This document shows positions 41,743-64,000 of a stretch of 64,000 nucleotides of DNA, one piece after another. This DNA comes from Robiginitomaculum sp. (lineage in GTDB: Bacteria > Pseudomonadota > Alphaproteobacteria > Caulobacterales > Maricaulaceae), in NCBI GenBank assembly GCA_002733905.1, contig NVXK01000004.1, positions 105,418 through 169,417 of the forward strand. Reading direction: 5' to 3'. Position numbers and translations under genes: made by a program. Position 1 is the first letter of the stretch; each line of letters starts with the position of its first letter. The notes under the pieces are model-generated. The model searched no databases and had not been told where the DNA came from. It worked only from the letters and a program-made list of their open reading frames with translations.

Positions 41743-43119
41743 TTATATCATCACTATGCTGGCGATAACATAGAGCACGATTGTTATGGCGCCTGCCAAA
41801 AGGGCATAGGGGAGTTGGGTTTTGACGTGTTCAAGCAAGTCACAGCCGCTGGCAATTGCTGAGACTGCGGTCGTGTCTGAAATCGGAGAGCAATGGTCGC
41901 CAAATACGCCGCCGCCTAAAATGGCTGACAAGACGAGTGAAGGCGGTAAGCCTAAATTGTGAATGAGCGGAACGCCAATCGGGATAAGGATCGCAAATGT
42001 TCCCCATGAAGTTCCCGTGGTAAATGACATCAAACCACCCGCGATAAATAGAATGGGGACGACGAGGACCAAGGGCAAATAATCGCTTACCATGCCTGCA
42101 ATGAAGAGACCCGTTCCGAGTTCTTTTAGGCTTGCGCCAAGTGCGAGTGAAAACAAAACAATTGTGACGAGCGGTAATAATTCCCCCATGCCTTTAAAGC
42201 CCGTTTCTACGAGTTGAACATGGCTGAATTTTCGGCTCATAAGCATCATAATATAGGCGACCAAGCAGGCAAGTGCCGTTGCATATAGAACTGATTTGGA
42301 GCCACTGCCTTTGGCCATGTCGCCGCCGCCTGTCCACAACATAAACCCAATCATTCCCAGCACCATCGTTGCCAAGGGAAGAACCATATATATGGATTTT
42401 GTCGGTGGGTATTCGTGTACATAATCTTCTGTAACGGGGGCCGCTTTGATTTCTGCATGTTTTAAAGGGCCATGAACCTTGGTGGTGATAACTGTATAAA
42501 AAACAATGATCAATGTTACGATGGCGTAGAAGTTTAGCGGCACTGTGCCCCATAATATTTGTGCAGCAGATTGTTCAAGTTCATAATCACTGAGCAAAGC
42601 CAATACATATGCACCCCACCCGTTGAGCAAAATCAAGATGCAAATAGGGGCGCTTGTACTATCAATAATATAGGCAAGGCGCGCGCGGCTCATGCCGTAT
42701 TTATCAAAAAGCCCTCGTGCTAAAATTCCAGATGTGAGCACGCTTAAGTTTGATTCTATGAAGATAATGATCCCTGTTAACATTGTGAGGAGGCCAACTG
42801 AAACGCGGCCCTTTGCAAGCCCGCTGCGTATTAGTTTTTCGACCATAGCCGTTACGCCGCCTGAAACGCGAATAAAGGCGAGCAGTGCGCCGACCATTAG
42901 AGAAAAGATCAATATCCGAGCATTGCCAGCATCGGTGAAGACTGCTGTTATCCGCTCCAAGCTGTTGATAAAACCAGTTAAAGGAAGCGAGACACTTGGT
43001 TGAGAAATTAAAAGTAACTCCGAGGTCAAAATTGCTAGAAATAGTGCGAGTATCACTTCTTTGCGCCATAATACGATTATGATCGCTACAATCGGTGGTA
43101 ATATCGTGAGCCAACTCAT
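41743..43119 (-). CDS. Na+/H+ antiporter NhaC family transporter
   Basis: Polytopic; GTSWGTFAILIPIGVPL and GGGVFGDHCSPISDTTAVSAIASGCDLLEHV motifs. Confidence 0.85.
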   Translation of the reverse strand: MSWLTILPPIVAIIIVLWRKEVILALFLAILTSELLLISQPSVSLPLTGFINSLERITAVFTDAGNARILIFSLMVGALLAFIRVSGGVTAMVEKLIRSGLAKGRVSVGLLTMLTGIIIFIESNLSVLTSGILARGLFDKYGMSRARLAYIIDSTSAPICILILLNGWGAYVLALLSDYELEQSAAQILWGTVPLNFYAIVTLIIVFYTVITTKVHGPLKHAEIKAAPVTEDYVHEYPPTKSIYMVLPLATMVLGMIGFMLWTGGGDMAKGSGSKSVLYATALACLVAYIMMLMSRKFSHVQLVETGFKGMGELLPLVTIVLFSLALGASLKELGTGLFIAGMVSDYLPLVLVVPILFIAGGLMSFTTGTSWGTFAILIPIGVPLIHNLGLPPSLVLSAILGGGVFGDHCSPISDTTAVSAIASGCDLLEHVKTQLPYALLAGAITIVLYVIASIVMI

Positions 43120-43211
43120 CTCTGCATTCCCCTTTAATCGTATTCTCAAAATAGCGCATTCAATGGCGCGTAAGAGTATTAGATTGCTATAATGATAAGG
43201 GCTTTATTGCA

Positions 43212-43231
43212 ATACCAATTTGAATTGGTAT
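43212..43231. promoter_or_regulatory. Perfect inverted repeat ATACCAATT-TG-AATTGGTAT between divergent transporter genes
   Basis: Direct reading; contains two ATTGGTAT octamers head to head. Confidence 0.75.
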
Positions 43232-43281
43232 ATATACAAGTCATAAAAGTATAAATGTTTTTAAGCGTATGAATTTGGGGA

Positions 43282-44862
43282 ATGATAAGAATGGCCGAGA
43301 GCTTTACATTATTAGATTGGATTATAATAGGCGGTTATGTGGGACTGCTCTTTGCTGTGGGGTGGCTGTTCTCTCGGCGGAAGTCTGAGAATGCGCGAGA
43401 TTATTTTTTAGGCGGGAATACGATGCCGTATTGGGTTGTGGCCATTTCTGTTTTGGCGACGTCTCAATCCGCAGCCACATTTTTAGGAGGGCCAGACCAA
43501 GGGTATCGTGGAAATTATACGTATTTAGCAACAAATATTGGTACGATTATTGCTGCACTTTTCGTTGCTAAAATACTCATCCCAAAATTTTATCAGCTTA
43601 AAGTGACAACAGTTTATGAGCTTCTCGCAGACAGGTTTAATGAAAACACCAAACGGGCCGCAGGAGGGATGTATTTAATCGGGCGTGTATTTGCCAGTGG
43701 TTCCAGATTGTACTTGGCAGCGATTGCGGTTTCTATGATTTTGTTTTCAAATATTGATGCCAGTAGCATCGTTATTTCCGCATTCCTTATGATGGTTTTA
43801 GGGTTTCTGATAACATTTTCAGGGGGCATAAAATCTGTTATCTGGAGCGATTTAATCCAGTTTGTTATTTATGGCGGTACGGCGCTGGCTGTTTTAATTA
43901 TCCTTTGGAATTCTATTCCTGCGAGTGGAACTGAAATTCTCAATGGATTAAAACATGCACCAGACGGGCAAAATAAACTTAAGTTTTTTGATTTTAGTTT
44001 CGATTTTTCAAAACCTTTTGCGCTGATGTCCATTCTGACGGGTATGACCTTATTGTCGATTGCAAGTTTTGGCATGGATCAAGATATGACCCAACGTGTG
44101 CTGAGTTGTAAAAATGAAAAAGAAGGTGGACGGGCTCTGTTGATCGCGGCCTTTATTACAATCCCCGTGGTTTGGGTGTTTGTGTCTATTGGTCAGCTTT
44201 TGCATGTATTTTATGAACGCCCTGATTTGATGGGCGAGGGTATTACCAGTGCAGCGGGGCGCACGTTTGAGGGCGAAAAAATTACGGTTTTCATGCACTA
44301 TATTCTTGGTGAGCTTCCTGCTGGAATGAGGGGACTTGTCACGGTCGGTGTTATCGCGGCGGCGGTTTCAACCATTAATTCAGGGCTGAATTCCATGTCA
44401 TCGGTTATTGTTGAAGATTTTTACCGCCCGTGGCGGAATAGACGCGGTATAGATACGGCAGAAAAACATTTTGTACGCGCAGGGCAAGTGTCTATGGGCG
44501 TGGTAGGCTTAGCTCTATTCCTTATGTCCGTTTTGTGCTTTTATTGGCAAAGGTATTCAGAAATGCCGCTCCTCGATTTTGCACTCTCTGTGATGGTATT
44601 CTCTTATTCTGGGCTTTTAGGCGTTTATTTCACCGTGATTTTTACAAAACGAGGCTCGCATTTGTCTGTGCTTTTAGCTTTGGCGGTAGGTTTTTTGGTG
44701 ACGCTTCTCTTGCAAGATTACATCATTGATACGCTGCACCTGCCCGAGAGTTGGAAGCATTTGGCTTTCTCATGGAAGCTTTGTATCGGTACGCTTATCG
44801 CGTTTTTGGTATGTGTGGCTGGTAATGATCAGCAAGTGAAGAGTTTGGGGGATGTAAAATGA
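43282..44862 (+). CDS. Sodium:solute symporter (SSS) family transporter
   Basis: ARDYFLGGNTMPYWVVAISVLATSQSAATFLGGPDQGY; ~13 TM. Confidence 0.9.
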   Translation: MIRMAESFTLLDWIIIGGYVGLLFAVGWLFSRRKSENARDYFLGGNTMPYWVVAISVLATSQSAATFLGGPDQGYRGNYTYLATNIGTIIAALFVAKILIPKFYQLKVTTVYELLADRFNENTKRAAGGMYLIGRVFASGSRLYLAAIAVSMILFSNIDASSIVISAFLMMVLGFLITFSGGIKSVIWSDLIQFVIYGGTALAVLIILWNSIPASGTEILNGLKHAPDGQNKLKFFDFSFDFSKPFALMSILTGMTLLSIASFGMDQDMTQRVLSCKNEKEGGRALLIAAFITIPVVWVFVSIGQLLHVFYERPDLMGEGITSAAGRTFEGEKITVFMHYILGELPAGMRGLVTVGVIAAAVSTINSGLNSMSSVIVEDFYRPWRNRRGIDTAEKHFVRAGQVSMGVVGLALFLMSVLCFYWQRYSEMPLLDFALSVMVFSYSGLLGVYFTVIFTKRGSHLSVLLALAVGFLVTLLLQDYIIDTLHLPESWKHLAFSWKLCIGTLIAFLVCVAGNDQQVKSLGDVK

Positions 44863-46493
44863 GACAGTATATAGGTTTTCGCCATTTCATTACTTTGCTC
44901 GCCTTCGGCGGCGCTGTGACGGGCGTGTCTGCATATGCACAGCTCGCACAACCTGTAGAATCTCCGCCTAAATCAATTTCGGGATTAAGTGACGCGAAGC
45001 TTAGGGCGATTGCGAATGGCGCGGTGCAGGCATTTGACACGCCTGGCTTGGCGCTTGGGATTGTGCAAGGGGGGCAGGTTAGGTTTGTTGATGGTTTTGG
45101 TCAGCGTGATATTGAACATAACAAATCGGTCGACGCAGATACATTGTTTCGTATTGCCTCAACCACCAAAGCATTCACATCTGCGGCCTTGGCGATTTTG
45201 GTTGATGAGGGTATTTTGCATTGGGATGATAAAGTCATCGATTTCCTGCCGGGGTTTCGGATGTCCGATGCATGGGTAACGCGAGAATTTACGATACGTG
45301 ATTTGCTTACGCATCGCAGTGGACTTGGGCGCGGAGCGGGCGATCTTATGCTTTGGCCAGAACCATCAGGATTTACGCGCGATGAAATCATATTTAATTT
45401 GCGTTACCTTAAACCTGTGACAAGTTTTCGGAGCCGATATGCCTATGATAATTTATTGTATATTGTCGCGGGTGAAGTCGTGGCAAAGGCCAGTAAAAGC
45501 ACATGGGAAGAATTTGTGCAGACACGAATTTTAGATCCCTTGCATATGAAGTGTTTTTCGGGAAAAATTCGAAAGTCAAAGCTTGAAAATGTGGCTATAC
45601 CTTATGGATTTATTGAAGAGAAAATTCAATCTATACCCCGTAATAAAATTGATGGGTCAGTGACAGCCTCTGCTCCTGCGGGCGGGTTGGTTTGCAATGT
45701 ACGTGGCATGAATACATGGATGCTTACTATGCTTGGGGGCGGGGCTGGGCCTAATGGCCAACGTATCTTTAGCAAAGCCGTTCGTGATGAAATGTGGAAA
45801 TCTCAAACGATACTGAGTGTATCTGCCTCTGAGAGAAAGTTGGATAACACCCATTTCAAAACCTATGCTTTGGGATGGCGTAAAGAAGACATGCATGGCT
45901 ATGAGGTCATATCACACACAGGTACATTATCGGGTATGCAGGCCTATTTGGCTCTGGTGCCAGAGCTTGATTTAGGGGTGATTATTTTAAATAATGGTTC
46001 CAATTATGGTGCGCGTAATTCTGTTATGCAAAGCGTGTTGAAAGCTTATATGGGGCAAGAAAAGCAAGATTGGGTTGACTATTATGCTACGCGTCAGAAA
46101 GACGCCGCTGAACGCCGCAAACTGGTCGCAAGTAATGATAATGCTTCTGACGGAGGTAGTTGGAAAGGTTCTGGAAAAGTCCTGCGGCCACTTACTGACT
46201 ATAGTGGTCTTTATCAAGATGCGTGGTTTGGTAAAGTTGACATAAAAAACGGGGCAAATGGTTTACGTTTTCGTTCTCACAAGTCAAAAAACATGGTGGG
46301 TAGGCTTGAGCCTTTCGATCAAAATACATTCATTGTACGCTGGGATAACAGAGGGTTTGGCGCGGATGCCTATGCACGGTTTGAGACGAATTTTAAAGGT
46401 GTGATTTCTGGTATCACGATGCGCCATGTTGATCCAAATGCAGACTTTAGCTTTGACTTTCAAGATTTGAATTTCGAGCGACTTAGTGAATGA
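44859..46493 (+). CDS. Serine hydrolase, beta-lactamase class C-like
   Basis: RIASTTKAFTSAALAILVDEG (SxxK), RYAYDNLLYIVAGEV (YxN), ISHTGTLSG. Confidence 0.9.
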   Translation: MRQYIGFRHFITLLAFGGAVTGVSAYAQLAQPVESPPKSISGLSDAKLRAIANGAVQAFDTPGLALGIVQGGQVRFVDGFGQRDIEHNKSVDADTLFRIASTTKAFTSAALAILVDEGILHWDDKVIDFLPGFRMSDAWVTREFTIRDLLTHRSGLGRGAGDLMLWPEPSGFTRDEIIFNLRYLKPVTSFRSRYAYDNLLYIVAGEVVAKASKSTWEEFVQTRILDPLHMKCFSGKIRKSKLENVAIPYGFIEEKIQSIPRNKIDGSVTASAPAGGLVCNVRGMNTWMLTMLGGGAGPNGQRIFSKAVRDEMWKSQTILSVSASERKLDNTHFKTYALGWRKEDMHGYEVISHTGTLSGMQAYLALVPELDLGVIILNNGSNYGARNSVMQSVLKAYMGQEKQDWVDYYATRQKDAAERRKLVASNDNASDGGSWKGSGKVLRPLTDYSGLYQDAWFGKVDIKNGANGLRFRSHKSKNMVGRLEPFDQNTFIVRWDNRGFGADAYARFETNFKGVISGITMRHVDPNADFSFDFQDLNFERLSE

Positions 46494-46511: not shown

Positions 46512-48080
46512 TCAGTCATTCCTATGTTTTCGCAAACTACGCCCATAATTGGGGGTTGTGGATTTTTCGGATGTATCGGCAATTTTCCCATTGACGATTA
46601 CGGCGTCAAAGCCTGAAGGTTGCGCGTAAATATCTGTCCAATTAGTGCCTGCTTTTACATGCTTAAGGTCGATCACTAAAATATCTGCGGCCAAACCTGC
46701 TTTTAAAATTCCGCGCGATTTTAGCCCGAATGTTTGCGCTGTAAGGCTGCTCATTTTATGTATGGCCAATTCGATAGAGAGGAGCTTGTCGCGCACGACA
46801 TATTCTTCGAGTATTTTGGGAAATGATCCAAATGAACGCGGATGACGCATGGTTGGGCTGCCATCTGAGGAAATGGAAATATCGGGCGCTGTAATAAATG
46901 CATTTTGTGTTTCTTTGGTCATAATGAAATGTGCCGTTGATGGGCCGCTATGTCCAAAATCTATGATAAGCTCTTCTGGGCGCTTTCCTGTAATGTTCGC
47001 AACATCTTGCAGGGTTTTTCCTGCGTATTGACCTCTGGAAATGAGAATGGCGTCAGGGCCGTTACGGCGTTTGATTTTTGCGCGTAGGAAAAGTTCAAAC
47101 TCTTCACGACGGTTTTTTACGGCCTCGTTAAATTCGCTCTTTCGTTTGGCCCATTCAGGGTAGAGGTAAATCATACTGCCAAAGCTTGCGAGATAAGGAT
47201 AGACATCAGCGCTAACGGTCATGCCGTCTTGTCTTGCATCTCTAATTTGCTTTAGAATATCCTCCCCCTGTGTACGGGTTTTACCGTATACGACTTTAAT
47301 ATGGGTGATGTTTACACGTGCAAAACGGCCTTGTTTAATGACTTCCTCAACAGATTGCGCGACTTTGTCATCATCTTCGTTACGTATATGGCTTGAGATA
47401 ATTCCGTCATATGCGCCTACAATTTTTGCTAAACCATTTAGCTCGTTTTCGTCTGCATAGCGGCCTGGTAAATATTCAAGCCCTGTGCTCAACCCATAGG
47501 CGCCTTGCTCCATCGCGCTCTTGAGTAGTGCTTCCATCTTGCCTTGTTCTTGCTGGGTGACTTTGTTTTTTTCGCCACCACCAGACCGTAGCCGAAGTGA
47601 TCCATGCCCAACTAAAGCTGCAATATTGGGCCCCGTGCCATGGTTGTCTATGGCAGCAAGCCAGTTCGTAAAGCTCATTTCGTTGTTCGGGCTAGAACCG
47701 TCTTGGCCTAAAATAACGGTCGTGACGCCTTGGCGTAAAAAGTTCTTTAAGTAATCATTGTTGTCTTGCAAAGGGGCCCCGTGGGCGTGAGCATCGATAA
47801 ACCCAGGTGTGACAATTTTATGTTTGGCGTCTAATATCTGTATGGCTCGGGTTTTAGTTTGATCCGTTTTACCTACAAATGCGATCTGGCTATCGCGTAC
47901 AAGCACATCGCCTTTATATGGAGGTTTTCCTGTACCGTCTACAATCATACCACCATGAATGTAGAGGTCATATTCAAGCGCGTAATTGGGCGTGTTTCGC
48001 TCTACTGCTATGTCCTTTTGACTACATGAGCTGAGGGAAAATAATCCTAAAAATACCAGAGTTTGAAGTATGAATTTCAT
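46512..48080 (-). CDS. D-aminoacylase / N-acyl-D-amino-acid deacylase family lipoprotein
   Basis: Lipobox LFSLSSCS; DLYIHGGMIVDGTGKPPYKGDVLV, VTPGFIDAHAHGAP, GLSTGLEYLPGRYA, ISSHIRNEDD. Confidence 0.88.
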   Translation of the reverse strand: MKFILQTLVFLGLFSLSSCSQKDIAVERNTPNYALEYDLYIHGGMIVDGTGKPPYKGDVLVRDSQIAFVGKTDQTKTRAIQILDAKHKIVTPGFIDAHAHGAPLQDNNDYLKNFLRQGVTTVILGQDGSSPNNEMSFTNWLAAIDNHGTGPNIAALVGHGSLRLRSGGGEKNKVTQQEQGKMEALLKSAMEQGAYGLSTGLEYLPGRYADENELNGLAKIVGAYDGIISSHIRNEDDDKVAQSVEEVIKQGRFARVNITHIKVVYGKTRTQGEDILKQIRDARQDGMTVSADVYPYLASFGSMIYLYPEWAKRKSEFNEAVKNRREEFELFLRAKIKRRNGPDAILISRGQYAGKTLQDVANITGKRPEELIIDFGHSGPSTAHFIMTKETQNAFITAPDISISSDGSPTMRHPRSFGSFPKILEEYVVRDKLLSIELAIHKMSSLTAQTFGLKSRGILKAGLAADILVIDLKHVKAGTNWTDIYAQPSGFDAVIVNGKIADTSEKSTTPNYGRSLRKHRND

Positions 48081-49529: not shown

Positions 49530-50693
49530 TCATGATAATGATAGTAATATTTTGCCAATCAACAAACCGCCACCAGTACCAATAATATATCCCAACATCG
49601 CCATCAGTACGCCAATCGGGATGAGGGCGCGTGAATAGGCTGCCGCAAGAATGGGCGCGGACGCAACGCCGCCTATATTCGCCAGTGAAGCCACGCCACA
49701 TGAAAACAAATCAAGCTTGAAGAGTTTGGCCGCAATAAGCATAACGATCCCGTGGATCGTTAAAATCATGAAACCTGCCATAATAAACAAGGGTGCTTGA
49801 CCAAGCTCTGCAAAATTTGCGCGTGACGCTATAAGGGCGATAATTCCGTATAACAATATATTGCCGAGTTCACTTGATCCTGCCACGCTGCCAATGCGGG
49901 TCATGGCCGCGAGCGAGCCAAGTATTGTGACAATCAATACGGTCCATGTGGTTTTAGAAAAGAATTCGGTTACAGGTAAGAAATTTGCAAAGTATTGGGC
50001 GAGTGCAGAAACGCCGAGTGCGAGCCCAATCAAAAACAAAAGCGAAGATGTTGTGATGTTCGCAGGCGTTCCTTGCGAATCCGCCTCTAATTTTGCGCCG
50101 ATTTCATCAATAAGTTTAGTATTGCTCTTCGTCCATTTATTGAACTTCGGTGCCAGTGGAACGAATGAGAGAAGTAAAACCACCCATATGGCATAATCAA
50201 TAGAATCCATGAGTAGGGAATATCCCATGCTCGCATCGGGGATATTAAGTGCGCCTTGCACGGCAACCATATTGCCCGTTCCCCCCATCCAACTCCCACT
50301 TAGCGCTGCAAATGTCATCCAACTTCCTTCAGGAAGCCATGTTTTGAGCACTAAAAATGTAATGATAAACCCTAGGCCGATACTCAAACTGGCCGTAATG
50401 AAGGCAATGAGCATTTTGGGGCCAAGAGCCGCAATTTTTCGAATGTCGCCTTTGAGTAAAAGGAGAAAAATCATTGAGGGAAGTAGATTGCCCTTGAGGC
50501 TGCTATACGCTGTATTAACACTGTCCGTTTTTGTCCATGCCCCAAATGTGGAGAGAAGCATGATGACGAAATATAGAATAACAATACCGGGTATGATTTT
50601 GAAAATTCTATATTTTTGCGTAGATTCCAGCGCACTTAAGCCGCCGCAAATCGCAAATAAAATGGCAATATATGCAAATCCACTCGTAATCAT
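49530..50693 (-). CDS. DUF819 family membrane protein (putative transporter)
   Basis: Polytopic; LSGSWMGGTGNMVAVQGALNIPDASMGYSLLMDS, LANIGGVASAPILAAAYSRALIPIGVLMAMLGYIIGTGGG. Confidence 0.82.
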   Translation of the reverse strand: MITSGFAYIAILFAICGGLSALESTQKYRIFKIIPGIVILYFVIMLLSTFGAWTKTDSVNTAYSSLKGNLLPSMIFLLLLKGDIRKIAALGPKMLIAFITASLSIGLGFIITFLVLKTWLPEGSWMTFAALSGSWMGGTGNMVAVQGALNIPDASMGYSLLMDSIDYAIWVVLLLSFVPLAPKFNKWTKSNTKLIDEIGAKLEADSQGTPANITTSSLLFLIGLALGVSALAQYFANFLPVTEFFSKTTWTVLIVTILGSLAAMTRIGSVAGSSELGNILLYGIIALIASRANFAELGQAPLFIMAGFMILTIHGIVMLIAAKLFKLDLFSCGVASLANIGGVASAPILAAAYSRALIPIGVLMAMLGYIIGTGGGLLIGKILLSLS

Positions 50694-52024: not shown

Positions 52025-52073
52025 CATAATATATTTCCTTAACGCGATATTTGATCTCTTGTTCAGATTGATA

Positions 52074-53434: not shown

Positions 53435-56404
53435 ATGGCAAATATTTCGCATAAATCGAGAAAAGCTTATCTTAAATACAATAAGATATTAACTGGCGCC
53501 GTTCTGGCCGCCAGTATGAGCGTAATAGCAGTTCCTGCTGTTGCTCAACAGGTAGGTGGTGTCACTGGCCATGTTGTTAATGACACAGGCGCGGCGATAT
53601 CTGGCGTAACAGTAGAAGCACGAAGTCCAGTTTTGCCTGGCGTAAGAACAGCAGTTTCTTCTGCAAATGGCCGTTATCAATTGCCATTACTCCCACCAGG
53701 TGAATACGAATTAACGTTTAAGAACCCTGACGGTACTGTTCTCAAACGTAATGCATTTGTTTTGTTACAACAAAAAATAAAAGTGAATGTAGCTTTTAAC
53801 AGCGCGATAGATGAGATTGTTGTTGTTGGTAGAAAAATGTATGTGGATTCAGGGAAAGCATCCTTGAAGAGCACAATCAACTCTGATGCTATCGAGGGTG
53901 TTCCTGTCGGGCAAGAATACCGTGATTTAATTAAGCTTATTCCTGGTGTTCAATATTCAGAAGACACAGTACGTGGGCCAAGTGCAGGCGGTAGTGGTCA
54001 GGATAATAATTATCAATTTGACGGCGTGGATGTATCTCTCCCTTTATTCGGTACGCTCTCAGCTGAACCATCAACGCATGATATTGATCAAGTTTCAGTC
54101 GTTCGCGGTGGCGCAACCGCTATTGGGTTTAACAGATCAGCTGGTTTTACTGTCAATACAATCAGTAAACGCGGGACGAATGAAGTTCACGGCGAAATTG
54201 GTTATAAATTGGAAACACCAAAGCTGACATCTGACCGTGATAGTGCGAGTTCAGTTGTGGATTTTGATGAAAATAAACGTTGGATTACAGCAAATCTTGG
54301 TGGCCCTATCATCAAAGATAAATTGTTTGCCTATGCATCTTATTACCGTCCAACGATTACGCGTGAAAACCGTAGTAATGCACTTGGTACGGTTCCTGAT
54401 TTTAAAAGCGAGCGTAATGAATATTTTGGCAAGCTAACATATGCGCCAGCTAGCAATCTTTTACTTGATGTGAGTTACCGTACATCTGACCGTACATTCC
54501 AAGGGTCCGGTGTTGGTGCATTTGACTCACCTACTTTAGCTACAGGCGGAAACGCTAGCCAAGATATTATTATTGCTGAAGGTTCGTGGATTATTGATGA
54601 TAAAAGTTCGTTTAATTTTAAATTTACTAACTTTAATAATAAGACATTCTCTGGCCCTGACACACTCTTTGATGTTCCTGTCACATTTGGCGGTGCGCTT
54701 CCTGTTGGGATGCTTGATCAGGTCGGACGTCTTTCTGTCCCAACTCTTCGTACTGGGGAAACAGCCTACAATGCCTTTGTTCAACCAATTATTGATCAAT
54801 ATGGGTTTTCAGAAAACGGTGTGCAAACTGGTGGCGGCACAGTAGGTGGCAACAACCAAATAAACAGACAGGACTTTACTCGTACTGCTTTTGAAGTCGG
54901 TTATGACCGCACCTTTATTACAGGTGATTCTTCTCATGATATTCATATTGGTTATCAATACCAAGAAATCGGTGAAGATCTTGAACGTACATCAAATGGC
55001 TTTGGTCGTATTTCAGTCATCGGCGGTCGTTCTTTCGCTGACGATGGTGTTACGCCAGTGTTTTATGAAGCACGTGTTTACCAAACAGGTATTGTCGACG
55101 GAAATGGCTCTACGATCGTTCCGCAGTCAATTGATACCTCATCAACACAACAAAGTTTTGAGATTAATGATACGTATGAAAATGGCGATTGGACATTTAA
55201 TCTAGGCCTATTGATTAGTAATGACGTATTGTACGGCCAAGGTTTACGTGAAAAATCTGGTACGATTTCTGGGTTCGAAACTGCGCCTGGTAATAAATAC
55301 AAAATGTATGAGGTTGATTGGAAAGACATGATCCAGCCGCGTTTTGGTGTGAATTGGGATTATTCAGATACAGCTGCTGTGTATGCAAATTTTGCACGAT
55401 ACACCCCGTCTACGTCATCTTTGTCACGTGCCGCGTCTTGGGACAGAAACCTTTCTCGTGAACTTAGATTGCGTTATGACGCGAACGGTAATTTTATTGA
55501 AAGTTCTGCTGTTAGATCATCTTCTGGTAAGTTTTTTGCAGACAATTTAAAACCACGCCAAATCAAAGAATATTTGGTCGGGTGGAATAAACAAGTGAAC
55601 GACCAATTGACCGTTCGTGCCCATGCGCGTCATCGTGCTGGTTCTAATTTCTGGGAAGATACGAACAATACGGCGCGTTTATTTGCGACTGCACCAGCTG
55701 AAATTCAAGCGCTAGGTCTATATATTCCAAATTTAGCCGATGTGCGTGCGGAAATCGGCGGATCTTCTTATGTGATTGCTCAGCTTGATACAGCCCATAC
55801 AGAGTATTATGAAGCTGGACTTGAGGCCGAATACTTTGGCGATAATTTCTTTATTTCCGGTTCATATACTTGGTCACGTTACACAGGTAATTTTGACCAA
55901 GACAATACGACAACGACTAATGATGGGAACCGCTTTATTGGGTCTTCTTTCATTGCCGATGGTATTGGTCGTCAGGTTTGGGATAATAGAGAAGGTACAT
56001 TACGTGGCGATAAACCTCATCAGTTGAAGGTTTTTGGCTATTATGAAATGCCTTGGAAGGGCCGTGTTGGCGCCTATGCAAATTACCAATCTGGTCAACC
56101 ATGGGAAGCTTGGGACGTCGAAGTTTATCGTGCCTTCACGGGAAGTAGCAGTGATACAAGCCGTTTTGCTGAGGCCGCTGGTTCTCGTAGAACGAAAGCG
56201 CATTTTCAGTTTGACTTGAATTACTCTCAAGAGTTTAAAGTTGTGAGTGGATATAATATCGAATTACGGGCTGAATTGTTCAATGTATTTAATAGCCAAA
56301 CTGGTTATAATATACAGAACAAGGTCAATAGCGCAGGTTTCGGTACCGCTCGTACTCTTTACAACCCACGTAGACTTCAATTGTCTGGAAAAGTTAAGTT
56401 CTAA
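53435..56404 (+). CDS. TonB-dependent receptor with N-terminal carboxypeptidase-regulatory-like domain (Oar-like)
   Basis: GGVTGHVVNDTGAAISGVTVEARSPVLPGVRTAVSSANGRYQLPLLPPGEYELTF, DEIVVVGRK, plug and C-terminal barrel. Confidence 0.93.
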   Translation: MANISHKSRKAYLKYNKILTGAVLAASMSVIAVPAVAQQVGGVTGHVVNDTGAAISGVTVEARSPVLPGVRTAVSSANGRYQLPLLPPGEYELTFKNPDGTVLKRNAFVLLQQKIKVNVAFNSAIDEIVVVGRKMYVDSGKASLKSTINSDAIEGVPVGQEYRDLIKLIPGVQYSEDTVRGPSAGGSGQDNNYQFDGVDVSLPLFGTLSAEPSTHDIDQVSVVRGGATAIGFNRSAGFTVNTISKRGTNEVHGEIGYKLETPKLTSDRDSASSVVDFDENKRWITANLGGPIIKDKLFAYASYYRPTITRENRSNALGTVPDFKSERNEYFGKLTYAPASNLLLDVSYRTSDRTFQGSGVGAFDSPTLATGGNASQDIIIAEGSWIIDDKSSFNFKFTNFNNKTFSGPDTLFDVPVTFGGALPVGMLDQVGRLSVPTLRTGETAYNAFVQPIIDQYGFSENGVQTGGGTVGGNNQINRQDFTRTAFEVGYDRTFITGDSSHDIHIGYQYQEIGEDLERTSNGFGRISVIGGRSFADDGVTPVFYEARVYQTGIVDGNGSTIVPQSIDTSSTQQSFEINDTYENGDWTFNLGLLISNDVLYGQGLREKSGTISGFETAPGNKYKMYEVDWKDMIQPRFGVNWDYSDTAAVYANFARYTPSTSSLSRAASWDRNLSRELRLRYDANGNFIESSAVRSSSGKFFADNLKPRQIKEYLVGWNKQVNDQLTVRAHARHRAGSNFWEDTNNTARLFATAPAEIQALGLYIPNLADVRAEIGGSSYVIAQLDTAHTEYYEAGLEAEYFGDNFFISGSYTWSRYTGNFDQDNTTTTNDGNRFIGSSFIADGIGRQVWDNREGTLRGDKPHQLKVFGYYEMPWKGRVGAYANYQSGQPWEAWDVEVYRAFTGSSSDTSRFAEAAGSRRTKAHFQFDLNYSQEFKVVSGYNIELRAELFNVFNSQTGYNIQNKVNSAGFGTARTLYNPRRLQLSGKVKF

Positions 56405-56484: not shown

Positions 56485-58047
56485 TTATTGGGCTGTTTTC
56501 CCTAATTCAGCCCTTAGTGCATCAAGCTTATGGCCATATTTCTTCCAACGCCCAATCGAACCGCTATAGAGTGGTTGACGAACTTGGACTGAGCTTGCTG
56601 TTGCGGTAGGGGATGTGTTTTCGTGAAAACGCATACAACTTTCATCCCATTCAAGTTCACAGAACGATAAAAGCTTGCGAGTTTGGTTTTTTTGATCATG
56701 GATAATGTCTTCATAGGCGATTTCCATGAATCTGTTAGGCGGTATGTTCTTGCGCCAATGTGACATCAGCCCATCGAATTCATTGTAGAAAATCGCTGTA
56801 TCTTCTAAGTCGAAAGCGTAATCATGATTATTATTATGGGACGCGAAAAGCTGGCGGTAATTAGACAGGCAGCTATCCATCGCCCCGCGACGAAGCACGA
56901 TAATTCTGGCATTGGGGAGGGCGCGATGTATCAGGCCTGCATAAAGAAAGTTGAAGGGCATTTTGTCGATCAAATGATCCGCGCCTTGCATGAGGGTTTG
57001 TGTCGTGGCGATATAGTTTTTACCTATATCCGATAAATTAATTTGGTTTGTTTTTAGGAATGTATCGCAATCTAATTGCGTATCTATTGGTAGAGCAGAT
57101 GCTGCCTTTATCAGTTTGGAAAAAACCGTGAGTTCACCTGCTGAGTGAACGCGTGGGTGCGATGATAGAATTCGGTCTACAAGGGTTGTTCCTGTACGCG
57201 GTAATCCCACAATGAATATTGGCGCAGCATTTGAAAATTTATCTGCGTCACTATGCTTATCCAACATGTCCAGCGTTATGGTCGTTTTAGCAGCGTCGAA
57301 GACCTTTGCCATGGCTTGCCTGTTGTATTGGATTTGTTTTCGCTTGGTGCTTTTCGCCTTTTTTAGCCAATCAAAACTATCTTCATATTCGCCTAAGTCT
57401 TCAAGTGTTTTGGCAATCGTATGCCCAAGAAGCAAATGCGAATCTGTTGTGTCTACTGCCCCGTTAACAGTGAGCTCATTAAAAAGAGTTTTCAGTTTCT
57501 CGAGATGATTGTTACCTGATGTTTGTTTTTCGAGTGCCACCAATGAAAACCAAGCTAGGTAAAATTTGGGATTTATAGAGAGGGTGTTTGTATAGGCAGA
57601 TTTTGCTTTTGCAAAATCACCGATAAATTCTGCGGACGCACCAAGGTTGAAGTGAAACTTCGCCCATTTTGGATTTTTCTTTACTGCCTGTTCGAAAAAA
57701 GGGATGGCAAGGTTATGATGCTCTGTACGGCTATAGATAACACCAATCATGTCGGATAAAAGGGCGTCATTTGTGCCAATTGTTGCAGCTATGTCGGCTC
57801 GGGCCTTAGCCTGGTTGTGATCTCCTAATGCCATAAGTGTATTGGCGTGATATGTTTGGTAACGCACATTCTTTGGGGCGTGTTCAGTTGCTTTTGCAAA
57901 GAACTCTAATGCCTTGACCGTATTGCCTGTGTCTGAGGCGAGAACGCCTAACAGGAAAAAGGGAAGGGGGTTCGTCTCGTTCTGCCGCAAAGCTTCGATC
58001 GACTGTTTGTAAACCGTTTCATACGCTCTTGATCTGAGGAGCTTCAT
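56485..58047 (-). CDS. TPR-repeat sulfotransferase family protein
   Basis: TPR N-terminus; PIFIVGLPRTGTTLVDRILSSHPRVHSAGEL 5'-PSB motif; start set at MKLLRSRAYE. Confidence 0.88.
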   Translation of the reverse strand: MKLLRSRAYETVYKQSIEALRQNETNPLPFFLLGVLASDTGNTVKALEFFAKATEHAPKNVRYQTYHANTLMALGDHNQAKARADIAATIGTNDALLSDMIGVIYSRTEHHNLAIPFFEQAVKKNPKWAKFHFNLGASAEFIGDFAKAKSAYTNTLSINPKFYLAWFSLVALEKQTSGNNHLEKLKTLFNELTVNGAVDTTDSHLLLGHTIAKTLEDLGEYEDSFDWLKKAKSTKRKQIQYNRQAMAKVFDAAKTTITLDMLDKHSDADKFSNAAPIFIVGLPRTGTTLVDRILSSHPRVHSAGELTVFSKLIKAASALPIDTQLDCDTFLKTNQINLSDIGKNYIATTQTLMQGADHLIDKMPFNFLYAGLIHRALPNARIIVLRRGAMDSCLSNYRQLFASHNNNHDYAFDLEDTAIFYNEFDGLMSHWRKNIPPNRFMEIAYEDIIHDQKNQTRKLLSFCELEWDESCMRFHENTSPTATASSVQVRQPLYSGSIGRWKKYGHKLDALRAELGKTAQ

Positions 58048-58081
58048 ACCTGTCGTCAGTGTTATGATGGTCAATCCCCGT

Positions 58082-58945
58082 TTATTGGTCAGTTTGTTGA
58101 CGTGCAAGCAGGAGTGCTCCTTCAAGAGCGTCACCATCAGGAGGAACGATTTCTGCGCGAATGTCGGGAGCAAGCCAAGGTTCAATACTTGCGGCCAGCC
58201 CACCTAATAAAGAACACCGTGGCACACCTGAATTATAAAGGCTGCGTACCATAGAATCGATATGGTTTGCTGAATGCCGTGTAATGAGACGCCCATGCCT
58301 GTCACCCGTTTCTGCGGCTTGTAGGACGATTGGGGCTAATGATGCGTAATCAGGCGCTGTCGCCTTGTCCATCCAACTCACTATTTCGTGGGTCTGGCAA
58401 TTAAATTTTTCGAAAAGGTGGCGGGTGAGATCCGAATGGCTTATGCGACCATCGGAAGTGCGTAATGTAATTCGGATTGCCTGCAATCCAATATAGGCGC
58501 CACTTCCTTCGTCAGAGATAGGGAAGCCATAGCCGCCAACCCGTACATCTTTACCTTTTATACGTCCAATCGCAATACTGCCTGTGCCGACGATAACAAT
58601 GCCGCCATCTTGGCCTGAATGTGCTCCTACATTGGCAATAAAAGCATCGTTGTAAATATGTGTAGAGTGAAACGGGAATGGTTGCGCCAGTAATTCTTCT
58701 TTTGCCCCTTCACGACCAATGCCGGCAATTCCCATGCTTGCTCGAATGGATGAAATATCTTGAGCCTCTAACTTGGCAGCCGTAATCGCTTGTTGATATG
58801 CGTCTTGGATAGCGGCAAAGACATTTGATATGCCTGTATTCGCATTGGCAGAACCAGATAAGCCCTGTCCAATAATGCGTCCCGACTTATCCGTAAGTCG
58901 CGCTCTACATTTCGTACCACCTGCATCAATTCCTAAAAAATACAT
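58082..58945 (-). CDS. BadF/BadG/BcrA/BcrD-type ATPase, N-acetyl-amino-sugar kinase
   Basis: YFLGIDAGGTKCRARLTD, IVIVGTGSIAIGR, GYGFPISDEGSGAYIGLQAI. Confidence 0.85.
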   Translation of the reverse strand: MYFLGIDAGGTKCRARLTDKSGRIIGQGLSGSANANTGISNVFAAIQDAYQQAITAAKLEAQDISSIRASMGIAGIGREGAKEELLAQPFPFHSTHIYNDAFIANVGAHSGQDGGIVIVGTGSIAIGRIKGKDVRVGGYGFPISDEGSGAYIGLQAIRITLRTSDGRISHSDLTRHLFEKFNCQTHEIVSWMDKATAPDYASLAPIVLQAAETGDRHGRLITRHSANHIDSMVRSLYNSGVPRCSLLGGLAASIEPWLAPDIRAEIVPPDGDALEGALLLARQQTDQ

Positions 58946-59121
58946 AAACTAGCCCTATGAACTGGTTTCTACTTAATGAGAGGGAATTGGTAGCTTTGTT
59001 AAAACTGGCTATAAATGCCTTCTAATTATTGTTCAGCCCTTAAAATATAGACATTACTTGTATCTAAATGAATTTCAAGCCGCTTGTAAAGCTATAGCAA
59101 GAATAATGAAATTGTCTATAT

Positions 59122-59129
59122 TGGTATTA
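59122..59129 (+). promoter_or_regulatory. ATTGGTAT octamer between sugar kinase and SIS/NagB-II genes
   Basis: tATTGGTATTacatAGGTATTg; same octamer as other promoters of the locus. Confidence 0.5.
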
Positions 59130-59193
59130 CATAGGTATTGTTTAATTTGTTGGTGGTGTTATATCCTTTGGTGTTAATATAAAGGAAGGCATA

Positions 59194-60234
59194 ATGAAGT
59201 CGCGAAGTGAGCCGCAGACCTTGATGTACGCAGAAGCGCGAGAGGCTCCTGATCGCGTTTGCAAACAATTGAAAGCTAATAAAGTACTGATTGAAGAACT
59301 GGCCGTGCGCTTGCGCAAAAACCCGCCAAACCTGATTGTGACATGTGCACGTGGGAGTTCTAATAATGTGGCGACTTATGCTAAATATCTAATTGAAACC
59401 CATATTGGTACGCCGGTTCTCTCATCTGCGCCTTCTGTAAGCTCGGTATATATGGCACCGCAAAAAATTAAGGGTGCGTTGTTTTTAGCGATTTCTCAAT
59501 CAGGTCAAAGTCCAGACCTCCTTATGACCGCGCGTGCAGCTAAAGAGAGCGGCGCCTTTATCGTTTCTATTGTGAATGACAGTACGTCGCCTCTAGCGAA
59601 TATGTCGGATTTTGTGATTCCTATTCATGCTGGTGCAGAAAAAAGTGTTGCTGCAACCAAGACCTTTATTTGCTCTCTGAGTGCGGTCATACATTTGGTC
59701 GCCGTGTGGAAGCAGAATGATGCTTTGATGGCAGGCCTTGAAAACATGCCTTCATTACTTGAATCTGCGTGTGAGCTGGATTGGCCTTCGGGTTTGGAGA
59801 AATTGATACCTGTTCATAACCTTTTTGTTGTTAGCCGTGGTTTAGGGCTTGGTATTGCACAAGAAGCAGCATTAAAGCTGAAAGAAACCTGTGGAATTCA
59901 TGCAGAGGCCTTTAGTGCGGCTGAAGTCAAACATGGGCCTATGACGATCGTGCAAAAGGGAAGCCCTGTGTTCATGTATTCTCCACAAGATCAAACACAA
60001 GAGAGCATGAATGATGTTGTCTCAGATTTTTTATCAAGGGGGGCGCAAGTGCTCTCGGCTGGTCACTCTTATGATCAGGCACTTAATCTCGACACCGCAT
60101 TTTGCCCCTTCAAAGAATTGCGGCCACTTTTATTTATCCAGTCTTTTTATATTTTCGTTAATGCGCTTTCCGTATTACGCGGTTATGATCCCGATAGGCC
60201 ACCCTATTTAAGTAAGGTAACGGAGACCGTATAA
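59194..60234 (+). CDS. SIS-domain protein, glucosamine-6-phosphate deaminase (NagB-II/AgaS-type)
   Basis: VTCARGSSNNVATYAKYLIE, ISQSGQSPDLL, VVSRGLGLGIAQEAALKLKETCGIHAEAFSAAEVKHGPM; followed by nagA. Confidence 0.88.
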   Translation: MKSRSEPQTLMYAEAREAPDRVCKQLKANKVLIEELAVRLRKNPPNLIVTCARGSSNNVATYAKYLIETHIGTPVLSSAPSVSSVYMAPQKIKGALFLAISQSGQSPDLLMTARAAKESGAFIVSIVNDSTSPLANMSDFVIPIHAGAEKSVAATKTFICSLSAVIHLVAVWKQNDALMAGLENMPSLLESACELDWPSGLEKLIPVHNLFVVSRGLGLGIAQEAALKLKETCGIHAEAFSAAEVKHGPMTIVQKGSPVFMYSPQDQTQESMNDVVSDFLSRGAQVLSAGHSYDQALNLDTAFCPFKELRPLLFIQSFYIFVNALSVLRGYDPDRPPYLSKVTETV

Positions 60235-61373
60235 TGCAAGCTCTTGTCAACGCACGTGTCTTAACGCCTAAGGGGTATAAAGATAAGCAAAGTGTCGTGT
60301 TTAAAGACGGTGTAATTGTTGCTGTATGCGATGATGAAGTGCGTTCTGCAAATGCCACGATCCTACAAGACCTTGGTGGGGGAGAATTAATTCCCGGCTT
60401 TGTTGATGTACAGGTAAACGGTGGCGGCGGTGTTTTGTTTAATGACTACCCTACTGTCGAGGGAATAAAAACCATTGGGGAAGCGCACCGAAAATTCGGC
60501 ACGACTGGGTTTTTTCCTACTTTAATTAGTGATGATTTGGATGTTATGGCGCGTGCAATCGAGGCGGTTGATATGGCCATTCAGCAAGGCGTACCCGGTG
60601 TTCTTGGAATCCATTTGGAAGGTCCATTCTTGAATGTAGAAAAAAAAGGGGTGCATGATCCGTCAAAAATTAAAACAATTGGCGCAAATGAATTAGCGCT
60701 AATGTCTAGTCTTAAAGCTGGGAAAACGATCATTACGCTCGCGCCAGAAAAAACAACGCCAGATATTATCAGTGCTTTGCATGCACGAGGTATTATTGTT
60801 TGCGCGGGTCATACGCAGGCAAGTTATGACGAAACGATGATTGCAATGGATGCTGGTTTGACTGGATTTACGCATTTGTTTAATGCGATGCGGGCAATGG
60901 AAAGTCGGCGACCGGGTATTATTGCGGCTGCATTAGAGGACAAGCGTGGTTGGTGTGGTATTATTGCAGATGGCCATCATGTACACTGGGCAATGTTACG
61001 TTTAGCTCTACGGGCAAAAGTCGGAGACCAAGTTTTTCTTGTCACAGATGCCATGCCAAGTGTTGGGGCCATGCAAAAGGAATTTTCTATCGGTGGGGAC
61101 GCTATTATTGTGAATGATGGAAAATGCATGACTGTTGATGGTCGACTTGCAGGGTCAGATTTGGATATGATCGGCGCTGTATTGAATGCTGTTGACCATT
61201 TGAACGTCGATTTCCCTCAAGCTGTACGCATGGCCAGTATCTTGCCCGCCCGATTTGTTAATATGCAAGATAGGTTAGGGGAGATACGCGTGGGGCTTCA
61301 GGCCGATCTCATACTTCTTTCTGTAGACCAGAAGGTTGAGAAAACATGGATTAAGGGGCAGGCTATAAGCTAG
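60234..61373 (+). CDS. nagA: N-acetylglucosamine-6-phosphate deacetylase
   Basis: IPGFVDVQVNGGGGVLFND, GIHLEGPFLN, AGHTQASYDE, THLFNAMRAM, LVTDAMPSVG; TAATG overlap with upstream gene. Confidence 0.95.
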   Translation: MQALVNARVLTPKGYKDKQSVVFKDGVIVAVCDDEVRSANATILQDLGGGELIPGFVDVQVNGGGGVLFNDYPTVEGIKTIGEAHRKFGTTGFFPTLISDDLDVMARAIEAVDMAIQQGVPGVLGIHLEGPFLNVEKKGVHDPSKIKTIGANELALMSSLKAGKTIITLAPEKTTPDIISALHARGIIVCAGHTQASYDETMIAMDAGLTGFTHLFNAMRAMESRRPGIIAAALEDKRGWCGIIADGHHVHWAMLRLALRAKVGDQVFLVTDAMPSVGAMQKEFSIGGDAIIVNDGKCMTVDGRLAGSDLDMIGAVLNAVDHLNVDFPQAVRMASILPARFVNMQDRLGEIRVGLQADLILLSVDQKVEKTWIKGQAIS

Positions 61374-61388: not shown

Positions 61389-62132
61389 TTAATCCAGCTC
61401 GTTGATATCTAGGTTCATAACAATGTCATAGCAATCACCGCGGTACGCTGATCTGGTAAGCTCCACGGGGGTGCCATCTTGCAGGGTTGATCGCCGTTCG
61501 ATACGCAGTATTTCGCTATTTACGTCAATGGCTAAAAGACCTGCTTCTGTCGGGTTTGCCAGTGAGGCACGGACTTTTTGTGTTCCTTTAACAGGATTGT
61601 TACCCTTTGTTTTTAGGGCCTCGTACAGAGATTGTGTTATCTCGGAAATGTCAGGCAATAATGATGCAGGAATGACGGCATGTTCAATCGCTAGAGGCTG
61701 GCCATCTGATAAGCGAACGCGCCCAAGCCGCACGACCTTGTCTGTTTGGCTAATGTTTAAAATTTCAGCTTCTTCCGTTGTTGGTGTACCGTAAGCTTTC
61801 ATAATCCAAATGGCCTGCGGGTTGTGACCATGGGTGTGCATATTGCTCGTGAAGCCGCGTAAACCAGACCCCAGATGGGAAATTGGAGGCAGTACAAATG
61901 TGCCAGACCCATGCTTACGCTGAACGATTTTGTCTTCTGAAAGAATGTTTAGGGCCTTACGAATAGTTACCCGTGAAGCGCCTGTCATTAGGCAAAGCTC
62001 ACGCTCGGAAGGTAGGGCCTCTCCCGCGTCGACATTGTTTTCAAAAATATAGGTGCGTATGTTTTTTGCAATTAGCATGTAATGAGGCATTGATGAAGTT
62101 TTATCCCTGCTAATCTTGTCTAACTTCATCAT
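61389..62132 (-). CDS. GntR family regulator with UTRA domain (HutC subfamily)
   Basis: ALPSERELCLMTGASRVTIRKALNILSEDKIVQRKHGSGTFV; C-terminal UTRA-like region. Confidence 0.92.
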   Translation of the reverse strand: MMKLDKISRDKTSSMPHYMLIAKNIRTYIFENNVDAGEALPSERELCLMTGASRVTIRKALNILSEDKIVQRKHGSGTFVLPPISHLGSGLRGFTSNMHTHGHNPQAIWIMKAYGTPTTEEAEILNISQTDKVVRLGRVRLSDGQPLAIEHAVIPASLLPDISEITQSLYEALKTKGNNPVKGTQKVRASLANPTEAGLLAIDVNSEILRIERRSTLQDGTPVELTRSAYRGDCYDIVMNLDINELD

Positions 62133-62291: not shown

Positions 62292-63668
62292 TTAGTCAAT
62301 AACAACACCCGGGTTTAATATCTTACGCGGATCGAGAGTGTTTTTTAACAATTTCATCAAAGCAATTTCTTCGGCGCTTCTTGTTTGAGAAAGCCATTTT
62401 TTTTTCTCATGCCCAATGCCGTGTTCTGCTGATACCGAACCGTTATATGCTTGCAAAGGTTCATATATGGTGCAGTCAGAAAGATGCCGAGTGTTGTTCG
62501 CGCTCGACCCCGGTTGAACAAAAAAATGTAAGTTCCCGTCTCCAATATGGCCGAGGACATAACATTTGGATTGTGGCAAGAGCCGATTTAGTTGCTCTTG
62601 AACGTTTTTAACATAATCATCCATTGAGGAAATAGGGAGGCTCACATCATAGAGGTAGACAGGTTTTGGGTGAAGAATAGGCTCGAAATCGTCTCGGATA
62701 GCCCATAGCGCTTGCCGTTCATTTTCAGATTTTGGTAGTACAGCGTCTACAATTAACCCCTTTGTATATACGGTTTCGATAACTTCCATAAACCGTTCAT
62801 CATCACGTATTGGGTCATTACCATCGCATTCAAAAAGGACATAGAATGGATAGGTATTTTTAAAGGGCGCGCGGTGAGCCCCTGGCTGTGTAACTGCTGA
62901 AACATATTCTCCCCACATGACTTCATACGCAGAAAGATTTGTACCTATATTGGCTTTTAAATATGTGAGCAATTTTATTACGGATTGAAAGTCAGGAAGG
63001 GCAACAAGTGCTGTGTTCTTGGTGGTTGATAAAGGCATTAATTTAACTACGGCGCGGGTGATAATACCTAGTGTACCTTCCGAGCCAATGAATAATTGTT
63101 TTAAATCATAGCCTGCATTATCTTTTAGCACTTTATTTAATGAAGAAATGATAGTCCCATCGGGCAATACGGCCTCAAGGCCAAGTACCATGGATCGTGC
63201 CATGCCGTAACGCAGAACATTTACGCCGCCAGCATTGGTGGCTAAATTACCCCCAATTGTACAAGATCCACGGGCCCCAAGGTCAAGGGGGAGAAATAGG
63301 CCTTTTGCTTTTACCGTCGTTTGTACGGTTTCCAAAATAGCGCCAGCTTCTATCATGGCGGTACCTGTGACGGGGTCAATTTCAGTAATGGCGGTCATGC
63401 GCTCCAGAGAAATGATGATATCATTATCCGTACTGCGCGTGCCTTGAACACAGGTCGTATTCCCGCCGTGTACGATAACCGTTTGGTTGTGCTCATGGCA
63501 TAGTTTTAAAATTTTAGAAATTTGCAACGTCGTCGTTGGTCGTAAAAGTGCTTTGGCGTGTAGAGGGGAGCTGTCCCAATAGCTCACAGCCCTCATTGCG
63601 ATGTCCGCATGGGGGAGCATTACGTCTTCGCCAATGTTTTGCTTTAAAATATCAATAATGTTTGGCAT
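62292..63668 (-). CDS. FAD-linked oxidase (GlcD / D-lactate dehydrogenase-type)
   Basis: TVIVHGGNTTCVQGTRS, DLGARGSCTIGGNLATNAGGVNVLRYG, GSEGTLGIITRAVVKL, GSVSAEHGIGHEKK. Confidence 0.93.
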   Translation of the reverse strand: MPNIIDILKQNIGEDVMLPHADIAMRAVSYWDSSPLHAKALLRPTTTLQISKILKLCHEHNQTVIVHGGNTTCVQGTRSTDNDIIISLERMTAITEIDPVTGTAMIEAGAILETVQTTVKAKGLFLPLDLGARGSCTIGGNLATNAGGVNVLRYGMARSMVLGLEAVLPDGTIISSLNKVLKDNAGYDLKQLFIGSEGTLGIITRAVVKLMPLSTTKNTALVALPDFQSVIKLLTYLKANIGTNLSAYEVMWGEYVSAVTQPGAHRAPFKNTYPFYVLFECDGNDPIRDDERFMEVIETVYTKGLIVDAVLPKSENERQALWAIRDDFEPILHPKPVYLYDVSLPISSMDDYVKNVQEQLNRLLPQSKCYVLGHIGDGNLHFFVQPGSSANNTRHLSDCTIYEPLQAYNGSVSAEHGIGHEKKKWLSQTRSAEEIALMKLLKNTLDPRKILNPGVVID

Positions 63669-63685
63669 ATTTTATCACCCAGAAT

Positions 63686-63700
63686 CATACTAATAGTATG
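63686..63700. promoter_or_regulatory. Perfect palindrome CATACTA-A-TAGTATG upstream of FAD-linked oxidase
   Basis: Direct reading, 18 bp upstream of the oxidase start codon. Confidence 0.6.
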
Positions 63701-63713
63701 CAACATTGCTATA

Positions 63714-64000
63714 TTAATCAGTCTTGGCTTTAAGCAGGGTGAACGCGGCTCGTAGGTTGCCATTTGCTTGATTTATGATGCGTTCTGCGCTTTCGAGGTC
63801 ATGCCCTAATGCAATTAAGGTCGCTGTTTTTATGTTTTCATTTGCACTCTTGAGAGACGCGCGCGCTGTTGCGGTTGAGCACTGGGTAATGTCGCAAATC
63901 ATATTTAGGGCGCGGCCTTCCAGTTTTTTATTAGACACAACCATGTCAACCATAAAGCCTTTATAGACATGCCCGAGCCGTGTCATAATCGCGGTAGAGA
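63714..64000 (-). CDS. murQ: N-acetylmuramic acid 6-phosphate etherase, C-terminal part (gene continues past window end)
   Basis: STAIMTRLGHVYKGFMVDMVVSNKKLEGRALNMICDITQCSTATARASLKSANENIKTATLIAL matches MurQ C-terminal pattern. Confidence 0.88.
   Translation of the reverse strand, partial: STAIMTRLGHVYKGFMVDMVVSNKKLEGRALNMICDITQCSTATARASLKSANENIKTATLIALGHDLESAERIINQANGNLRAAFTLLKAKTD

Follow-up and report, generated by a model that had tools for sequence, protein, structure and literature searches.

Can a single locus of a marine alphaproteobacterium lead the wall fragments of other bacteria from the outer membrane to central metabolism? Peptidoglycan is a large marine pool of organic carbon and nitrogen, and to our knowledge few Gram-negative loci with this capacity have been described. 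The question is raised by a cluster of about 17 genes in a Robiginitomaculum-like bacterium. The cluster lies in a stretch of 64,000 nucleotides, here called the window, which comprises bases 105418-169417 of a 200-kb contig (NVXK01000004.1) in a draft genome of 3.48 Mb (GCA_002733905.1). We consider the cluster to be a muropeptide (peptidoglycan) utilisation locus forming one regulon, with a probability of roughly 0.82; it appears built for uptake of foreign wall fragments and for burning both their sugars and their peptides. Gene identities, co-conservation, shared operator-like sites and phyletic coupling were established directly, and from the sequence we infer every substrate, the direction of transport and reactions, and induction.

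Gene content of the locus

The initial annotation listed the genes of the cluster from an amidase to MurQ, the etherase acting on the 6-phosphate of N-acetylmuramic acid (MurNAc). Searches of the window for open reading frames (ORFs) and family profiles recovered all of them intact, at the expected positions and in the expected families, except that MurQ runs over the edge of the window and is complete in the continued sequence (L001). Beyond MurQ, the adjoining gene codes for NamZ, an exo-beta-N-acetylmuramidase, which strengthens the peptidoglycan reading. The grouping of these genes is far above chance.

The TonB receptor would carry soluble muropeptides into the periplasm. In the cytoplasm the kinase, MurQ, NagA and NagB-II would take the sugars to fructose-6-phosphate, and the FAD-linked oxidase would make pyruvate from the D-lactate that MurQ sets free. 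NagQ, the GntR-type regulator, would occupy the divergent promoters joining the blocks of the locus and let go when amino-sugar phosphate rises. Should this scheme be true, the locus would be a genetic marker for peptidoglycan scavenging and would show a sugar regulon recruiting peptide catabolism. DUF819, a family spread over many phyla, would gain a testable function, and an import step whose permease was called unidentified in Bacillus subtilis (PMC2954226) would have a candidate.

Conservation among relatives

We searched 137 genomes of the family for DUF819, several of the compared ones being draft or metagenome assemblies, and read the surroundings of the matches. The gene set recurs in nine relatives (G108, G117, G099, G005, G059, G118, G119, G123 and G135), which together with the window's genome cover five genera including the window's own; often it occupies a single contig with the blocks in another order. 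The cultured strain Robiginitomaculum antarcticum DSM 21748 is among the carriers of the locus (L056, L163). The gene order of G108 is identical to that of the window throughout. In G123 one contig carries NamZ-amidase-receptor-NagK-sulfotransferase-NagB-NagA-NagQ-FAD-MurQ-SSS-AmpH-NlpC-DUF819-NhaC-LysA-M19, i.e., the full set minus the D-aminoacylase, plus a diaminopimelate (DAP) decarboxylase and with the block order changed; the linkage thus outlasts rearrangement. The draft assemblies of G119 and G135 have the set divided between two contigs.

All 12 family genomes that carry the DUF819 clade of the locus have MurQ, versus 1/125 of those lacking it (Fisher p 2e-16, ignoring relatedness), and NamZ is found in 10/10 locus-bearing genomes versus none of five genomes of the same genus lacking the locus. 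By the initial annotation, its integrated uptake and catabolism locus would fall if the blocks at 41.7-46.5, 46.5-56.4 and 58-64 kb were never co-located in related genomes. The blocks do lie together in nine further genomes, in varied block order, and this supports the integrated locus together with the common operator motif and the fact that MurQ and NamZ track the locus.

Some relatives have additional peptide genes within the locus. A YkfB-type epimerase, the L-Ala-D/L-Glu epimerase of a ykf operon, lies inside the locus in G117 and G119 (PDB 1jpm, E 2e-95) and is missing from the locus in the window; apart from G117, such epimerase assignments are by tblastn identity. DAP decarboxylase is found at the locus in G117, G118, G119, G123, G135 and G115, and LdcA near NamZ in G059. 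The presence of these genes within the loci of relatives strengthens the integrated reading. In their place the window, G108 and G099 have the D-aminoacylase with M19. It should be noted that lysA thus sits in a peptidoglycan locus (L041 11018-12301, L034 3160-4449, L037 12629-13918), and that the locus copy is the only close one found in G117 and G119, as though lysine synthesis were tied to wall scavenging.

Operator-like sites and a probable NagQ regulator

The GntR/UTRA gene lies alongside nagA and nagB in the window and in relatives, and its product is probably NagQ. The published NagQ operator consists of TGGTATT direct repeats (PMC4494728). Such repeats precede NagB-II in the window and in relatives, and at the other two divergent promoters of the locus the TGGTAT sites are single or inverted. 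The window has five copies of ATTGGTAT, an octamer picked after viewing the sequence, and every one of them falls in the divergent promoters NhaC/SSS, amidase/receptor and NagK/NagB-II, which amount to 643 bp or 1% of its length.

The sites recur in relatives. One of the ATACCAATTTGAATTGGTAT type is found at the same place in G108 (L038 3542/3554) and before the SSS gene in G117 (L041 1129/1141), and TTGGTATTATAGTGGTATTG precedes NagB-II in G118, G119 and G123. The site pair in the receptor promoter has an exact spacing of 63 bp in seven genomes (the window's, G108, G005, G118, G119, G123 and G135); its promoter-proximal member reads TGGTATTTGAC and may therefore overlap the -35 box. The operator reading is supported independently by the published NagQ motif, by the regulator gene beside nagA and by this recurrence. 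A classical HutC palindrome of the GGTNTANACC type, the first motif sought, turned up at 27327 alone, a position that has no relation to the locus.

Features of the locus

The coordinates are collected in Table 1.

Table 1. Genes and candidate operators of the locus. Coordinates are window positions; beyond 64000 the numbering is continued past the window edge.
Feature	Position	Strand	Match or context	Role
NhaC-type inner-membrane transporter	41743..43149	-	PF03553, E 4e-43	suggested importer of DAP or other released amino acid
Inverted repeat ATACCAATTTGAATTGGTAT	43212..43231		NhaC/SSS divergent promoter	candidate NagQ-type operator
SSS, sodium:solute symporter	43282..44862	+	PF00474, E 8e-27; PDB 5nv9, E 1e-37	suggested importer of MurNAc and/or N-acetylglucosamine (GlcNAc)
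AmpH/class-C beta-lactamase-like serine hydrolase, secreted	44859..46493	+	PF00144 and DUF3471	suggested D-Ala-removing or crosslink-cleaving peptidase
D-aminoacylase/N-acyl-D-glutamate deacylase-type lipoprotein	46512..48080	-	lipobox LSSC	
NlpC/P60 lipoprotein with SH3b1	48106..~49521	-	Pfam; lipobox MTSC	predicted gamma-D-Glu/DAP endopeptidase
DUF819 transporter	49530..50693	-	PF05684, E 1.5e-95	proposed Na+-coupled importer of L-Ala-gamma-D-Glu
M19 (renal dipeptidase family) lipoprotein	50780..52084	-	Pfam, E 1e-95; PDB 3b40, E 4e-71	predicted L,D-dipeptidase
AmiD/AmpDh3-type N-acetylmuramoyl-L-alanine amidase, periplasmic lipoprotein with peptidoglycan-binding domain	52074..53129	-	PDB 4bxd, E 5e-59	
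Two ATTGGTAT sites, 63 bp apart	53251..53321	+	amidase/receptor divergent promoter	
TonB-dependent outer-membrane receptor, CarboxypepD_reg domain	53393..56404	+	Pfam	suggested muropeptide receptor
TPR-sulfotransferase	56485..58203	-	Sulfotransfer_3, E 9e-47	
BadF-type GlcNAc kinase (NagK)	58082..58945	-	NF046058, E 4e-75, below cut-off	
TTGGTATTACATAGGTATTG	59121..59140	+	before NagB-II	NagQ-type direct repeat
NagB-II, glucosamine-6-phosphate deaminase	59194..60234	+	NF046059, E 2e-107, below equivalog cut-off	
NagA, GlcNAc-6-phosphate deacetylase	60234..61373	+	TIGR00221, over cut-off	
GntR/UTRA (HutC-type) regulator	61389..62132	-	Pfam; beside nagA	probable NagQ
GlcD-like FAD-linked oxidase	62292..63668	-	profile match	suggested D-lactate dehydrogenase for the MurQ product
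MurQ, MurNAc-6-phosphate etherase	63714..64604 (604 bases past window)	-	NF003915	
NamZ, exo-beta-N-acetylmuramidase lipoprotein	64839..66164 (outside window)		PF07075, E 7e-81; PDB 4jja, E 1e-111	

The sugar half and the source of the peptidoglycan

MurQ scores 357.8 bits with NF003915 (cut-off 168) and 293.2 with TIGR00274, slightly under the cut-off of 302; its catalytic Glu motif GAELGPTFG is present. Both domains of NamZ are over the Pfam cut-off (PF07075, 270.8 bits; PF20732, 98.9 bits). NagK, the sole BadF kinase in the genome, matches the MurNAc/GlcNAc kinase 8zo3 (E 4e-20). It stays below the NagK_SO3507 equivalog threshold (253 bits full-length versus 370) and is retained as a family relative only. 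The gene for the FAD-linked oxidase adjoins murQ in G108, G115, G117, G123 and G135. Among the transporters, an SSS homologue is the same-strand neighbour of MurQ and NamZ homologues in Paraglaciecola and Alteromonas, and the NhaC-type gene adjoins DAP decarboxylase in four g18 genomes. The receptor has no SusD-like gene with it, as judged from window ORFs and Pfam, and thus does not form the SusC/SusD pair of a Sus-type polysaccharide utilisation locus. The TPR-sulfotransferase, whose true start probably lies within the ORF, is present in nearly every version of the locus at a shifting position (L034-L042, L161-L172) and has no evident role in peptidoglycan use.

NagK, NagB-II, NagA and the GntR regulator together with a TonB receptor make up a known arrangement for GlcNAc; Caulobacter has two such clusters (PMC13046382), and the NagQ core consists of nagA/nagB and transport (PMC5343134). 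The locus might therefore be a chitin or GlcNAc cluster which adjoins wall hydrolases by accident. We find this improbable, since the stretch has no chitinase or hexosaminidase, and chitin use needs neither MurQ nor NamZ. Moreover, the hydrolases remain linked to the nag genes across rearrangements in five genera, and the hydrolase and nag blocks have operator-like sites in common.

A second question is whether the peptidoglycan comes from other cells, given that all the enzymes would act equally well on the cell's own muropeptides. The initial annotation was correct in stating that AmpG, LdcA and an Ala-Glu epimerase are missing from this stretch. Other contigs of the genome carry an AmpG-like permease and one NagZ, and AnmK is also located elsewhere, so the most fitting reading of the locus is an accessory catabolic module for exogenous peptidoglycan. 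That it instead recycles the cell's own turnover products seems to us to have only a slight chance. AnmK is found in 15/15 genomes tested, locus-bearing or not, whereas the locus is patchy (12/137 family genomes), and the outer-membrane receptor indicates a supply from outside. MurQ and NagB lead to catabolism, and Caulobacter, which recycles with AmpG, AmiR and NagZ, does so without MurQ and LdcA (PMC13046382).

Some observations count against a muropeptide locus. The SSS and the receptor could instead serve GlcNAc from chitin. A MurK-type MurNAc kinase should have non-bulky residues at positions 133-135 and Thr at 94. NagK, aligned by hand in MurK numbering, has Gly-Gly-Tyr at the former and Asn at the latter; the MurK structure paper links the latter difference to poor MurNAc binding, so the supply of MurNAc-6-phosphate by this kinase remains putative. 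LdcA and a close L-Ala-D/L-Glu epimerase were not found in the genome, absences which rest on single-family searches of an assembly that is 96.9% complete. The number of ATTGGTAT octamers is not above chance (5 observed versus 3.3 expected from shuffles), so that the weight lies on their placement and conservation alone, and the motif search upstream of namZ and murQ in the window gave no match.

The peptide half

Lipoprotein-like N-termini are found on five hydrolases, four by a regular expression and that of M19 (LESC) judged by eye. The amidase resembles the periplasmic AmpDh3/AmiD enzymes and not cytoplasmic AmpD, and the nearest PDB entry to the D-aminoacylase-like protein is the N-acyl-D-glutamate deacylase 3gip (E 2e-56). 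The NlpC/P60 protein starts at an internal ATG ahead of its lipobox, and its nearest PDB entry is the gamma-D-Glu-diamino acid endopeptidase 3m1u (E 6e-18). Its active-site motif is YGW, DC, PRNS (YGWG...RDCTGF...PRNS). The residues of a gamma-D-Glu pocket are present (Tyr226, Trp228, Asp237, Cys238 and a small residue at 257), with Ser239 replaced by Thr. The label of YkfC subfamily, for which a free N-terminal L-Ala is needed, was dropped because the protein has Asn, not Asp, at position 256 of BcYkfC, and Asp256 is the criterion of that subfamily (PMC2954226). The Asn is common to the window protein and to all 35 hits of related loci in a motif scan beside DUF819.

The DUF819 transporter

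The DUF819 protein was originally one of three transporter candidates; its linkage to epimerases across phyla makes it the most informative gene of the locus. The locus clade was compared with 85,462 species genomes, and the 80 best loci were analyzed; the counts below are over loci that are not independent of each other. By record title they belong to Pseudomonadota, Campylobacterota, Bacillota, Desulfobacterota, Spirochaetota, Fusobacteriota and Riflebacteria (seven phyla). A dipeptide-epimerase homologue is near DUF819 in 52/80 loci, within about 2 kb in 48 and on the same strand in 50, with identities of 43-68% outside the query's own record. For 67 of the loci the sequence reaches 3 kb or more downstream; 49 of these have an epimerase and 59 an epimerase or NlpC. 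Pfam assignment of 69 neighbours from 14 loci gave the epimerase family at the top (11), followed by NlpC/P60 (6). In Paraglaciecola and Alteromonas, DUF819, NlpC, SSS, MurQ and NamZ homologues lie on a single strand, in most cases with a kinase-like match.

The substrate in Table 1 is proposed from this neighbourhood and from a CitS-like fold model. The model used was built with 63 sequences and has a predicted local distance difference test score (pLDDT) of 89.6; a first model with 12 sequences was discarded (pLDDT 61.6). The retained model is closest to the Na+/citrate symporter CitS (best E 2e-5, template modelling score up to 0.70, a match of fold only), consistent with the placement of DUF819 in the CPA/AT clan as kin of glutamate symporters (PMC8396727). 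No assigned function of DUF819 was found in the open (non-subscription) literature.

The kinship with glutamate symporters would also suit free D-Glu or L-Glu, and DAP or a tripeptide could also be the cargo, or the protein might export. We regard such alternatives as possible, at odds clearly below even. Neither epimerase nor NlpC is near DUF819 in 8 of the 67 loci whose sequence extends 3 kb or more downstream. Since no close epimerase was found in the window's genome, use of the dipeptide there would fall to M19 or some other dipeptidase acting in the cytoplasm. On the other hand, the top neighbour of DUF819 is an epimerase whose substrate is L-Ala-D-Glu, the second, NlpC/P60, makes this dipeptide outside the cytoplasm, and in six genomes of the family epimerases also accompany DUF819 paralogues that have diverged to about 25-30% identity. 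Import of L-Ala-gamma-D-Glu therefore stays our proposal for the clade.

The window genome's own paralogue (C10) has a DUF2817 gene and an ornithine-cyclodeaminase-like gene as neighbours, and no epimerase was seen there. G108 has a second cluster (L052 8019-16222, G108:C14) with a TetR regulator, a divergent DUF819, a dipeptide-epimerase-like gene and an AmpH-like DUF3471 hydrolase, and a frame of 1017 codons in between. In many strains of Neisseria meningitidis a pair of M15 metallopeptidase and DUF819 substitutes other genes of the methylcitrate cluster (PMC12671195); a link to peptidoglycan peptides would fit.

Neighbouring genes

Left of the locus (36174-41719) lies a separate unit with an AraC regulator, a siderophore-type TonB receptor, an alpha/beta hydrolase, a glyoxalase and a second AraC gene; in G108 this place is taken by a MATE-like gene. 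The left part of the window also codes for a DUF1800 protein (11154-12929; PF08811, E 3e-84). To the right are a di-haem cytochrome c peroxidase family protein with a RoxA-like motif (L001 7264-8787) and an ATP-binding cassette (ABC) importer with a TonB receptor resembling vitamin B12 uptake (L001 9713-14231).

Comparison with known systems

The ykfABC(D) genes of B. subtilis and B. cereus share with the locus an NlpC/P60 protein with SH3b, a dipeptide epimerase (only in relatives of the locus) and a nearby peptide transporter. For B. cereus, cleavage outside followed by import of L-Ala-gamma-D-Glu has been proposed, and in B. subtilis the permease for the pathway was described as unidentified (PMC2954226). 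The window differs by lacking epimerase and LdcA, by a DUF819 carrier instead of a Dpp/Opp-type ABC transporter, and by the Asn for the subfamily-defining Asp256 of its NlpC; its locus also holds the sugar half and the outer-membrane receptor.

The murTKQ cluster of Tannerella forsythia likewise scavenges exogenous MurNAc with a transporter, a kinase and MurQ, and the organism has NamZ (PMC7670621, PMC10465942). That cluster is associated with AmpG and NamZ enzymes, whereas the locus has neither AmpG nor a MurT-type carrier and adds NagQ control and the NlpC/DUF819/M19 peptide half. Its host is an alphaproteobacterium making its own MurNAc.

A contig of the mussel symbiont Urechidicola carries two SusCD pairs, epimerase, MurQ, NagB and AmpG (PMC10199937). 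Outer-membrane uptake is there too tied to MurQ, a deaminase and an epimerase, the last being present only in relatives' versions of our locus. It is a Bacteroidota SusCD system with AmpG, whose substrate the authors leave open, and the passage describing it mentions no DUF819.

The GlcNAc clusters of Caulobacter and the NagQ regulons of Proteobacteria share with the locus the TonB receptor, NagA, NagB, the GntR regulator and the TGGTATT-repeat operator (PMC13046382, PMC5343134, PMC4494728). The window locus has no phosphotransferase system and adds MurQ, NamZ and wall hydrolases to this set; here the NagQ regulon appears to have been extended to peptide catabolism.

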